The position numbers and the translations under genes are program-made. This document shows, in pieces, positions 57,667 through 62,268 of a DNA stretch of 64,000 nucleotides. The notes below the pieces were generated by a model that had not been told where the DNA came from, searched no databases, and saw only the letters and a list, made by a program, of their open reading frames with translations. The DNA is taken from positions 1 through 64,000 of the forward strand of contig NZ_LUFH02000005.1 in assembly GCF_001586785.1 (NCBI RefSeq). Direction: 5' to 3'. The stretch comes from Sphaerospermopsis aphanizomenoides BCCUSP55 (GTDB lineage: Bacteria; Cyanobacteriota; Cyanobacteriia; Cyanobacteriales; Nostocaceae). Numbering within the stretch: the stretch's first letter is position 1; every line of letters begins with the position of its first letter.

Positions 57667-57704
57667 TTTTTTAACAGTTAAATACAATACTTTTTTACAA
57701 ATTG

Positions 57705-57710
57705 TCCGGA
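57705..57710 (+). promoter_or_regulatory. TCCGGA element of a DIF-class promoter
   Basis: TCCGGA lies 58 bases before the patX start codon. In Anabaena this hexamer at the -35 position marks promoters induced during heterocyst differentiation. A possible -10 (TAAGTA, 57726-57731) follows at a spacing of 15 bases. The match with patX genes in other strains is from memory and would need transcript mapping. Confidence 0.55.
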
Positions 57711-57767: not shown

Positions 57768-58004
57768 ATGCGTGCTGCCATTTCACTTTTAGTATCGAGT
57801 CTGGTATTCGGCTCCTTAGCTTTTAACTATGAAGCAGAATTCACTGGCATTTTCCATCCGCTGACTGGTAATTCTGGTTCAGGAAAGCTACTTGCAGACA
57901 ATTCTAAGCCCGGGCCTAACGAACCAGAACAGCCAGCACCTCATCGGGGTAGTGGACGTAAAGAGTCAATTGAATTTTTCCTAAATATCAATTCTGCTGT
58001 TTAG
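57768..58004 (+). CDS. patX: PatX-type heterocyst-inhibiting peptide precursor
   Basis: This 78-aa protein has an N-terminal Sec signal (ISLLVSSLVFGSLAF). The segment PAPHRGSGRK (residues 56-65) contains the RGSGR pentapeptide (60-64) that blocks the master regulator HetR. PatS has the same pentapeptide at its end; PatX differs by its signal peptide and an H before the motif, both seen here. The peptide would be exported, processed and passed between cells to space heterocysts. It has a 14-residue extension after RGSGR (KESIEFFLNINSAV). A DIF-type TCCGGA promoter element and the gifA-glnA context support the call. Confidence 0.85.
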   Translation: MRAAISLLVSSLVFGSLAFNYEAEFTGIFHPLTGNSGSGKLLADNSKPGPNEPEQPAPHRGSGRKESIEFFLNINSAV

Positions 58005-58100
58005 CACCCCCTGGGTCAGACTGCTTTTAGGAGAATTTCTTGCCAGAACAAGAATCAATGTACCGGAATAATCGGGTGTCCCACATCCTTTACACAACTA

Positions 58101-58267
58101 GTCAGACCAAGACAAAGACAGTTAAAGCACTACACAATTCTTCCACTGTTTTTTATTGTATGTTCTTTGACAGAGATATAGACAGTTTAAGCACTACATA
58201 ACTCAACAAGCGTTCTGTGATTTCATCTTCTCTGACAGAGACAAAGACAGTTCCAGCACTACACAAC
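58101..58267. repeat. Three ~65-bp direct repeats downstream of patX
   Basis: The unit GACAGAGACAAAGACAG followed by TTnnAGCACTACACAACT occurs three times, beginning near 58102, 58168 and 58232, at periods of about 66 and 64. The 36-base core is well kept, the spacer not. There is no open frame. The layout (tandem, non-coding, next to a heterocyst-pattern gene) recalls NsiR1-type small-RNA arrays, but I cannot confirm identity. Confidence 0.75.
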
Positions 58268-58724
58268 TGACTGGTGTTTAGTATTTCTCAAAAAACATCC
58301 GGTAATTGCAAAAACCTGGCCTTGTACTGGTGATTAAGCCACTCATCACTCATATCAGTGTTAACCTAGCTGAAAATTTGATGTGATACCAAGGTGGATA
58401 TTTTCGGCATTTTTCCAGTATTTAGACCATACTCTTGTTGATGTATTTTTCCTACTCTAAGTTCAGCGAATCCGCTTTTATATACCGTTGCGTTTAAGAA
58501 AGCGGGAAGCTACCCTTCAGGTGTCCAGGTGCGAAACAAAAAATATATGGTTCATTTACCCAAAAATCACTGTAAGCAGGGGTGATTCAACCGCAATATG
58601 TCAAGTTTTCTGAGGGAAAAGGAGAAGGGGTAAAAGGTAAGAGTTTTTCCCTTTCCCATGTTTCTTATACTCTTTCGGGATTCGCACCTTACCCTTTACA
58701 CCCAACCCATTCAACAATGAACAA

Positions 58725-58840
58725 TGTACAATTGACAATTACCTCTGGCTGGAAGGAAGAGGATTAAATTGTCAAAGGGAAAACTTTGATCATTTTCCCC
58801 TTAAACAGGGAAAACTTTAAACCTTGAATGGATCAATTGT
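58725..58840 (+). repeat. Double-hairpin interspersed repeat, copy 4
   Basis: This runs from CAATTGACAATTACCTCTGG through GAGGATTAAATTG to AACTTTAAACCTTGAAT and GATCAATTGTCAATTG. It is the most diverged copy and its second hairpin is altered (TTTTCCCCTTAAACAGGGAAAA). It is in the same orientation as copies 2 and 3. Confidence 0.65.
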
Positions 58841-58874
58841 CAATTGTCAATTGTCAATTATCAATTGTCAATTG

Positions 58875-59933
58875 TTAATCTGGTTTATGAGCAATAAAAT
58901 ATTTGCTCATAAAGTGAACTTGGGTTTCTATATTCTCAAAACCTGCTTTCTCCAAACGCTCTACCAAATCATCAGTAGTGTAATGTTTGTAATAGGGTTC
59001 ATGGAAAGTTTTTGGGAAATTATTCATCATTAATTCCATATCGGGTGAATCATTCAACTGAATTGAATCACAAATAATAAAAGTTCCTCCTGGTTTTGTC
59101 ACTCGGAAGCATTGCTCTATAACTTTTTGACGCACAGACTCTGGTAATTCATGGAAGAGGAAAACAGACGTGACAGCATGAAAATAGTTATCTAGATAAG
59201 GTAATTCTTCAGCATTGGCTTGTAAAAGTTGTGGCAATTCCCTAGGATTTTGAGATAATAACTCATAGGCCTTTCGCAAATACGCCGGGGATAAATCTGT
59301 ACCAAATAAAGAAACTTGCTCTAAAGCGGATCGAATCATCTTTAAAGTTCGACCAGTACCACAAGCTACATCTAAAATTCGGATTTGCTTTTGAGGAAGA
59401 AACTGGAATTTGGCCAGTTCGCGTTTGAGGGGAGCGAGAATACGTCGCCGCATGGCATCAGCTGAACCACCAAACAGAATTTCTACCTGTAGGTCATACA
59501 AATTGGCTGACAGGTCGCTCAAATAGCCGTCAGTTTGGTGATGAAAATTTTGGACATAGTAGCTCGGATAGCCTTCTTTATCTATTTCTGGTGAAAACTC
59601 TTGCAGACTGTTGTTTTTAATTCGCTCCCAGATGAGGGGTAAATCTAGCCACGTTAGTGGATAGTAGCGGAAAAAGTCTTCCCAGGGATTGTCAAATAAT
59701 AAACTGTGGGGATATATTCCTGTTTCTGCATCCTGCCAGTCTGTTTCTAGTAGCTGGTTAAATCTGTTTTGCAGTTTGAGTATTAACTCTTGAGGAATGG
59801 GTTGGTCTGCTGGCGCTAGTGTGGGATACAGTAAATTTCTTAACTGGGAACTGAGGGTTTTGTGAGCTAGTCCGAAGTAATTCTTTCCTTGTTGAAAGGT
59901 CTGATAGGTGAGTTTCGTTAAGGTGTCAGACAT
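58875..59933 (-). CDS. Class I SAM-dependent methyltransferase
   Basis: This 352-aa protein has a ~175-residue N-terminal helical region (LETDWQDAETGIYPHSLLFD, WEDFFRYYPLTWLDLPLIW) and then a methyltransferase with motif I ILDVACGTGRTLKMI and RVTKPGGTFIICDSIQL. It probably methylates a small molecule or lipid. The N-terminal part is shared with other cyanobacterial proteins I cannot name. It separates patX from gifA but faces the other way, so it is not in an operon with them. Confidence 0.75.
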   Translation of the reverse strand: MSDTLTKLTYQTFQQGKNYFGLAHKTLSSQLRNLLYPTLAPADQPIPQELILKLQNRFNQLLETDWQDAETGIYPHSLLFDNPWEDFFRYYPLTWLDLPLIWERIKNNSLQEFSPEIDKEGYPSYYVQNFHHQTDGYLSDLSANLYDLQVEILFGGSADAMRRRILAPLKRELAKFQFLPQKQIRILDVACGTGRTLKMIRSALEQVSLFGTDLSPAYLRKAYELLSQNPRELPQLLQANAEELPYLDNYFHAVTSVFLFHELPESVRQKVIEQCFRVTKPGGTFIICDSIQLNDSPDMELMMNNFPKTFHEPYYKHYTTDDLVERLEKAGFENIETQVHFMSKYFIAHKPD

Positions 59934-60227: not shown

Positions 60228-60428
60228 ATGTCTATTCAAGAAAAATCTCGTGCGTTAATGGTGCGTCAACATCAGCAAGTTAAAAACCGTCAACAATCCA
60301 TGCTGATGCGTGCAGCACAAGAACTCGGTCTTCCTGAAGAACTATCCAATTATTGGAATCCCATTCAAGGGAAGGTAGATCCTACCACTCAAACCCTTTA
60401 CAGCCGCAGTAATGCAGCGATGAGCTAG
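60228..60428 (+). CDS. gifA: Glutamine synthetase inactivating factor IF7
   Basis: This 66-aa basic protein starts SIQEKSRALMVRQHQQVKNR and contains QQSMLMRAAQELGLPEE. The same ARALM-R-x-H-Q and N-R-Q-Q-S-M-L patterns and length are known from cyanobacterial IF7. It binds glutamine synthetase and inhibits it when ammonium is present. The target gene glnA lies about 300 bases downstream on the opposite strand. An exact NtcA consensus site is in the upstream region. AGAGG precedes the ATG. Confidence 0.9.
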   Translation: MSIQEKSRALMVRQHQQVKNRQQSMLMRAAQELGLPEELSNYWNPIQGKVDPTTQTLYSRSNAAMS

Positions 60429-60723: not shown

Positions 60724-62139
60724 TTAGCAATCGTAATATAAGAAGAATTCGTAGGGATGAGGACGTAACTGCATCTGCTTAACTTCGTTAGCTAGTTTGT
60801 AGTCAATCCAGTTTTGAATGAAATCTTCTGAGAATACGCCTGTTTCGGTTAAGAAAGCGTGGTCATTTTCCAGTGCTTCCAAAGCCAGTTCCAAAGAACC
60901 AGGAGTAGAAGGAATCTTAGCTAGTTCTTCTGGAGAAAGTTCATAGATATTCTTATCTAAGGGTTCACCAGGATGGATTTTGTTCTTGATACCATCAATA
61001 CCAGCGCAAAGCATGGCAGCGAAGGCTAAGTAGGGGTTAGAAGTTGCATCAGGACAACGGAATTCTAACCGCTTGGCTTTGGGGTTATCACCACTTAAAG
61101 GAATACGTACAGAAGCAGAACGGTTTCCTTGGGAGTAAGCCAAGTTCACGGGTGCTTCATAACCAGGTACGAGGCGTTTGTAAGAGTTTGTAGTGGGGTT
61201 GGTGATAGCCAACAAAGCAGGTGCGTGTTTGAGGATACCACCGATGTAGTATAAGCCCATATCGCTCATGCCAGCATACTTGTCACCTGCAAAGAGGGGT
61301 TGACCACCTTTCCAGATGGACTGGTGACAGTGCATACCAGAACCATTATCACCAAAAATGGGTTTGGGCATGAAGGTGACAGTTTTGCCGTACTTTCTGG
61401 CCACGTTCTTGATGACGTATTTGTAGGTCATCAACCAGTCAGCAGCTTCAATTAATTTGCCAAAGCGGAAACCGAGTTCGCACTGACCACCAGTAGCAAC
61501 TTCGTGGTGTTGTTTTTCAATGGGTACGCCACAATTCTTCATTGTTAACAACATTTCAGTCCGAATATCTTGGAAGGTATCCGTTGGAGGAACTGGGAAA
61601 TAACCTTCTTTGAAGCGTGTTTTATAACCCAGGTTGGGGCTTTCCTTTCTACCTGTGTTCCAACGACCTTCTACGGAGTCTACATGATAGTAGCCTTCGT
61701 TGGCGGTTTGGTCATAGCGAACATCATCAAACAAGAAGAATTCAGCTTCTGGACCAAAGAAAGCTGTGTCACCGAGTCCTGTGGAAGCCAGATAATCTAT
61801 TGCTTTTTGGGCAATAACGCGGGGGCAACGGTTGTACCATTCGCCTGTGCGTGGTTCTTTAATGCTACAAATAATACTTAGAGTTGGCTCTGCCATGAAC
61901 GGGTCGATCCAAGCAGTGTTGGGATCTAAGACCATTGTCATGTCAGATTCTTCGATGCCTTTCCAACCCCGAATACTGGAACCGTCGAAGGGTACACCAC
62001 TGGAGAAGGAACTTTCATCAATTTGGTCATGGTACACAGTCAAGTGCTGCCATGTACCTGGTGTATCTATGAACTTCAGATCGATCATCTGAATGTTTTG
62101 GTCCCGAATCATCTTCAAGACTTCTTGTGGGGTTGTCAT
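60724..62139 (-). CDS. glnA: Type I glutamine synthetase
   Basis: This 471-aa enzyme has [60 protein letters not shown] and the NRSASVRIP substrate loop. It joins ammonium to glutamate with ATP and is the main entry of fixed nitrogen, highly important in heterocysts. The ATG at 62139 ([10 protein letters not shown]) has AAGGAG five to six bases upstream. A longer frame up to 62199 is not the true start. Control is by IF7 (gifA) and by an NtcA-type promoter. Confidence 0.97.
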
Positions 62140-62268
62140 TGTTACTCCTTGTGTACCCAATTTTCTAAAATAAACCAGACTTTGCCAAAATATCCTCACC
62201 CTGCGGCGCTAACCCAAGTTGTGACACACCACCTGGAATATCGTAAATAGTTGACTTGAGACAAGTTT

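Follow-up and report, generated by a model that had tools for sequence, protein, structure and literature searches.

Locus Structure and Gene Identity

In the window, i.e., the complete stretch of 64,000 nucleotides analyzed here, a small open reading frame (ORF) is located between its upstream neighbor, a gene for an FAD-dependent oxidoreductase (PF12831), and a methyltransferase gene, the latter being encoded on the opposite strand and convergent with it. The ORF was identified as patX, a small gene whose exported peptide keeps neighboring cyanobacterial cells from turning into nitrogen-fixing heterocysts. The following features were assigned.

57677..57690, plus strand: NtcA-like site GTTAAATACAATAC, with GTT in place of the GTA of GTA-N8-TAC, 28 nt before DIF1
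57705..57710, plus strand: DIF1 motif TCCGGA, 63 nt before the ATG
57768..58004, plus strand: patX coding sequence, ATG start, TAG stop, 78 aa, MRAAISLLVSSLVFGSLAFNYEAEFTGIFHPLTGNSGSGKLLADNSKPGPNEPEQPAPHRGSGRKESIEFFLNINSAV
57768..57827, plus strand: signal-peptide-like N-terminus MRAAISLLVSSLVFGSLAFN, end approximate, assigned from the sequence and kept in nearly all relatives
57942..57959, plus strand: HRGSGR hexapeptide, residues 59–64, read from the sequence, pN/pS 0.02
57960..58001, plus strand: 14-residue C-terminal tail KESIEFFLNINSAV, length and end typical of the family, pN/pS 0.53
58091..58280, no strand assigned: three tandem direct repeat units behind patX, period 64–65 nt, core AGACAGTTNNAGCACTAC
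60228–60428: gifA, glutamine synthetase inactivating factor IF7A (NF052599)
60724–62199, minus strand: glnA

The deduced protein matches the NCBIfam model NF047413 (“heterocyst-inhibiting protein PatX”) with 78.6 bits (E-value 4.4e-22) at a curated cut-off of 30 bits. Residues 1–66 of the ORF align with positions 1–68 of the 69 model positions, and the model, which stops two residues past RGSGR, excludes the tail. The hydrophobic N-terminus MRAAISLLVSSLVFGSLAF is near-identical across relatives and is predicted from this comparison to act as a Sec signal; the protein part downstream of it is expected to be disordered. The same frame is present in close relatives at 87–88% protein identity, and a copy from an uncultured Trichormus (L032) bears the identical tail, in favor of the initial annotation, for which frame conservation had been proposed as a check. 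Its description of a small ORF with signal peptide followed by HRGSGR, between oxidoreductase and methyltransferase, is likewise borne out by the sequence and the PF12831 match.

The gene order glnA, gifA (IF7A), methyltransferase, patX and FAD oxidoreductase agrees with the region of asl2332, the patX gene of Nostoc/Anabaena PCC 7120, around which all2333, alr2331, asl2329 and alr2328 have been named (PMC7761841); the locus is therefore orthologous and does not represent a new look-alike gene. Because of family model, synteny, DIF1 promoter and the presence of hetR in the genome, the PatX identity proposed initially holds, and the ORF at 57768–58004 is a real gene and a PatX ortholog, well supported but ordinary. 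It shares with the PCC 7120 PatX the signal peptide, HRG(S/T)GR, the DIF1 promoter, the gifA/glnA neighborhood and the co-occurrence with hetR, whereas the motif reads RGTGR in PCC 7120 and RGSGR in the window. The 14-residue tail is no difference from the PCC 7120 type, as HRGTGR-type PatX proteins of genus g79 possess tails of 10–14 residues; from these HRGTGR-bearing g79 genomes (L153, L154, L200, L202, and L203) we infer a tail for the PCC 7120 protein as well.

Other assignments were discarded. A chance ORF is ruled out by the NF047413 match (4.4e-22), the frame found in relatives, the identical L032 tail and the motif pN/pS of 0.02, and the L032 copy also rules out a frameshift or sequencing error as the source of the tail. 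PatS is, like the window PatX, an RGSGR-bearing HetR inhibitor, but it is very short, lacks a Sec signal and has the motif as its C-terminus; with 78 aa, a signal-like N-terminus and 14 residues beyond the motif, a PatS-type gene is ruled out. HetN likewise contains an internal RGSGR that is to be freed from a longer protein, but it is of the ketoreductase type with several hundred residues and not a small exported precursor. A HetN-type gene is ruled out, as the 78-aa protein is devoid of any Pfam domain and, hence, of a ketoreductase (SDR) domain. A PDB search with repeated RGSGR gave no matches.

Promoter and Receptor

For comparison, 168 distinct PatX proteins were collected from genomes of the window’s family (Nostocaceae) and of its order. 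DIF1 is found at exactly 63 nt before the start in 123 of the corresponding genes and within 140 nt in 141, with about 0.01 TCCGGA expected by chance per 140-nt promoter. In patX genes of heterocyst formers, Elhai and Khudyakov reportedly described an NtcA site upstream of DIF1 in 2018. Among the 141 promoters with DIF1, GTA-N8-TAC is present within 60 nt before this motif in 101, and the looser form GT-N10-AC in 130; the site in the window, GTTAAATACAATAC, is in the usual place and matches only the looser form.

The genome contains one hetR, which is intact and located on the same contig as patX (C210, 99320–100213). Its product is 90% identical to a HetR query sequence taken to be that of PCC 7120, and all six residues reported to matter for PatS6 contact (R223, E253, E254, D256, D270, and D278) are retained.

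Silent sites evolve slowly in the first 18 patX codons (57768–57821 and orthologs), with a pS of 0.107 versus 0.21–0.25 in the rest of the gene and a four-fold third-base identity of 0.64 versus 0.52 elsewhere in it, hinting at an RNA-level constraint at the start of the gene.

The C-Terminal Tail Among PatX Proteins

A profile search of 217 genomes of the window’s family detected PatX in 211. When counting tail length after the last RG(S/T/E/G)GR, exactly 14 residues is the commonest form (85/168), coming nearly entirely from the window’s family, and most of the remainder have 10–16 residues, besides 5-residue tails (13/168) and tail-less proteins (13/168), the latter all from outside this family. 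The 14-residue tails follow the loose consensus R-E-[LV]-[MTI]-[EQ]-x-x-G-N-[IT]-[YH]-[PSA]-[VA]-V, and in 93% of them the last residue is apolar (A, V, I, L, M or F). In 137 of 155 tails, a basic residue (K or R) directly follows the motif. Among 21 dissimilar (thinned) 14-residue tails, 17 have V or I at the end, compared to 20.5% in a set of 195 long ORFs taken from the window and the longer loci.

The standard PatX of the window’s family thus carries 14 residues behind RG(S/T)GR. The initial annotation correctly recorded 14 residues with an apolar end behind HRGSGR, but considered as a peculiarity these do not stand up to comparison with other PatX proteins, in which neither such an extension nor its apolar end is unusual. 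The gene is one more patX of known kind, and its tail extension as a novelty does not hold. The accompanying question of whether the tail is trimmed, needed for export or part of a different signal is valid, yet it pertains to most PatX proteins. As most precursors in the window’s family continue beyond RGSGR, release of the hexapeptide requires a cut on either side.

Selection was assessed by region over 40 disjoint pairs, giving pN/pS values of 0.02 for the motif, 0.32 for the signal, 0.53 for the tail (bootstrap 0.39–0.74) and 0.54 for the linker. Nucleotide identity drops from 0.88 to 0.66 and then to about 0.5 past the stop. Together with the pN/pS value, this drop indicates that the tail is coding and filtered, but weakly. 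Given that it is constrained to the same degree as the linker, a specific role of the tail may not exist. It has been lost through stop codons at least three times and at differing positions, with the old tail still legible past the new stop (asterisks) in Dolichospermum (RGLDG*LGNVGSVI*), Richelia sinica (SEA*MESFPTIPIAV*) and two Nostoc (REVT*KSENIYVVV*). Fischerella-type PatX proteins (L028, L030, L070, L082, L083, L086, L090, and L092) appear internally duplicated, with a second motif that has decayed to GGSRR but retains 14 residues behind it, the last three being VVA. In this type, the tail has kept its C-terminal position rather than its place behind an intact motif.

Other Sources of RGSGR

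Degenerate patterns read by eye in the 254-contig assembly revealed neither an ORF ending in RG(S/T)GR, as would be typical of PatS, nor a HetN-like RG(S/T)GR followed by [IV][IV]. An ERGSGR-stop pattern is present in 148 of 208 genomes of the window’s family, some of these being chance matches, and is also missing from the related genera g15, g32, g61, and g74. PatX may thus stand alone as early inhibitor in the window’s organism and these genera and, within the limits of pattern searching in a fragmented assembly, may provide most of the RGSGR in the former.

Proposed Release of the Inhibitory Hexapeptide

Starting from what can be read directly in the genomes, i.e., orthology, promoter elements, hetR, and conservation as well as losses of the tail, the best overall explanation, which we regard as probable, is a PatX ortholog that is exported and cut to HRGSGR, with the tail being a normal pro-piece trimmed outside the cytoplasm. 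The tail would most likely be dispensable in this role, as the still readable remains of lost tails suggest. Upon nitrogen step-down, the DIF1 promoter would transcribe patX in cells starting to differentiate, and its signal peptide would direct export of the precursor. Cutting would yield the hexapeptide HRGSGR, which would then enter neighboring cells and prevent HetR from DNA binding. The uncut precursor would be inactive with its motif masked by the tail, because HetR recognizes the free carboxyl end of RGSGR. In the structure of the HetR hood with PatS6, Arg223 is positioned beside the C-terminal carboxyl group of the peptide, and the R223W substitution shifts the affinity for PatS6 from 12 nM to about 2.4 μM, i.e., about 200-fold lower (PMC4649674). 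If masking is true, the tailed peptide HRGSGRKESIEFFLNINSAV would bind HetR much more weakly than HRGSGR.

Trimming, cut site and protease are what we infer here: the tail would be removed outside the cytoplasm, plausibly by a cut at the basic residue nearly always found right after RGSGR, and the conserved apolar end could serve an S41-type C-terminal protease as handle. Three S41 proteases are encoded in the genome. A cyanobacterial example of this kind of processing is the photosystem II D1 precursor, whose short C-terminal extension is removed outside the cytoplasm by the S41 protease CtpA (PMC8121967, PMC8909930), although this is an analogy of processing alone, as D1 and PatX are not related in sequence. 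One of these reports assigns trimming of the D1 precursor in photosynthetic organisms to CtpA and calls the roles of CtpB and CtpC elusive (PMC8121967). A C-terminal signal dedicated to processing in the PatX of heterocyst formers, made up of the basic residue after RGSGR and an apolar C-terminus at fixed spacing and read by a protease of the CtpB/CtpC kind, appears unlikely; if true, morphogen release would need two cuts by different enzymes, the second of which would be bypassed in clades without a tail.

Experimental data are available for PCC 7120, where PatX activity depends on export and processing (PMC12756182). The PatX signal exports maltose-binding protein (MBP) in E. coli and HRGTGR binds HetR at 88 nM, while cytosolic signal-less PatX did not bind HetR in the two-hybrid system and was inactive unless the peptidase PatP was co-expressed (PMC12756182). 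The two-hybrid result could, however, stem from the N-terminal and not from the C-terminal extension. For its ex vivo cleavage assay, the PatP study presents GPDIIFWAHDR as the peptide flanking the motif on the C-terminal side (PMC12756182). As this peptide maps inside MBP, the C-terminal fusion partner, tail-side cleavage is not resolved in that work. Published PatX maturation data thus resolve the N-terminal side only, and a test of the PatX tail was not found in the literature searched. Ready comparisons for a control of signal release by the tail are offered by its natural losses and by the clade in which a PatS-type ORF ending in RGSGR was not detected.

Alternatively, the tail might be a passenger, arising as translation runs to the next stop, with residues weakly filtered against harm, playing no part in recognition and being degraded by general peptidases. 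A pN/pS equal to that of the disordered linker, the repeated nonsense losses and the existence of tail-less PatX in other families are in line with this, but it leaves unaccounted for the exact length of 14 residues in half of the distinct proteins, the K or R at the first position, the fourfold excess of a final V or I over long ORFs, and the Fischerella-type duplication with its decayed downstream motif and retained C-terminal tail. We consider a passenger tail less probable.

The tail might also act before processing, in export, in stability, or in keeping the signal local by retaining the precursor at membrane or septum, which would fit the apolar and often aromatic end and the C-terminal place kept in the Fischerella type; however, a membrane anchor would have to be longer and less polar than this tail, a covarying partner was not found, and Dolichospermum PatX does without a tail, making such a role very improbable. 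Retention of the tail in another kind of signal, such as a longer peptide with changed HetR affinity or one read by another receptor, is the least credible reading and hardly to be expected. Length conservation, the joint occurrence of tailed and tail-less paralogs in several filamentous genomes outside the window’s family (e.g., G044 and G353) and the finding that most PatX effects look HetR-independent in Leptolyngbya (PMC11298460) would agree with it. Against this stand the clamping of the peptide’s free C-terminus by HetR (PMC4649674), the binding of HRGTGR by itself (PMC12756182) and a tail sequence poorly conserved for a ligand.

Downstream Repeats and Additional PatX-Like Genes

For the tandem repeat downstream of patX, other convincing copies in the window’s genome, Rfam families near their gathering score and a conserved RNA fold were not found, and the single-sequence fold is unremarkable. 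The repeat is present downstream of patX in 53 of 214 loci (among them L033, L035, L038, L040, L048, and L104) with 1–5 copies, a period of 64–65 nt and the core AGACAGTTAAAGCACTAC, starting mostly 90–190 nt past the patX stop, and occurs in Anabaena, Trichormus, Sphaerospermopsis, Cylindrospermum, Richelia and Dolichospermum. Among upstream control regions, it was seen in one of 168. A different tandem array, made up of 6.7 copies of the heptamer TCAATTG, is located at 58833–58879, just beyond the 3′ end of the methyltransferase gene.

Outside the window’s family, filamentous genomes of the same order can encode two PatX-like genes (L177 and L178 in G044, L195 and L163 in G353, L165 and L194 in G425), one ending in RGSGR and the other bearing a tail of 17–25 residues. 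Three RGSGR copies per PatX-like precursor, reminiscent of a multi-copy prohormone, are found in L188 (G248) and L192 (G346), L188 additionally containing a degenerate FGNGR.
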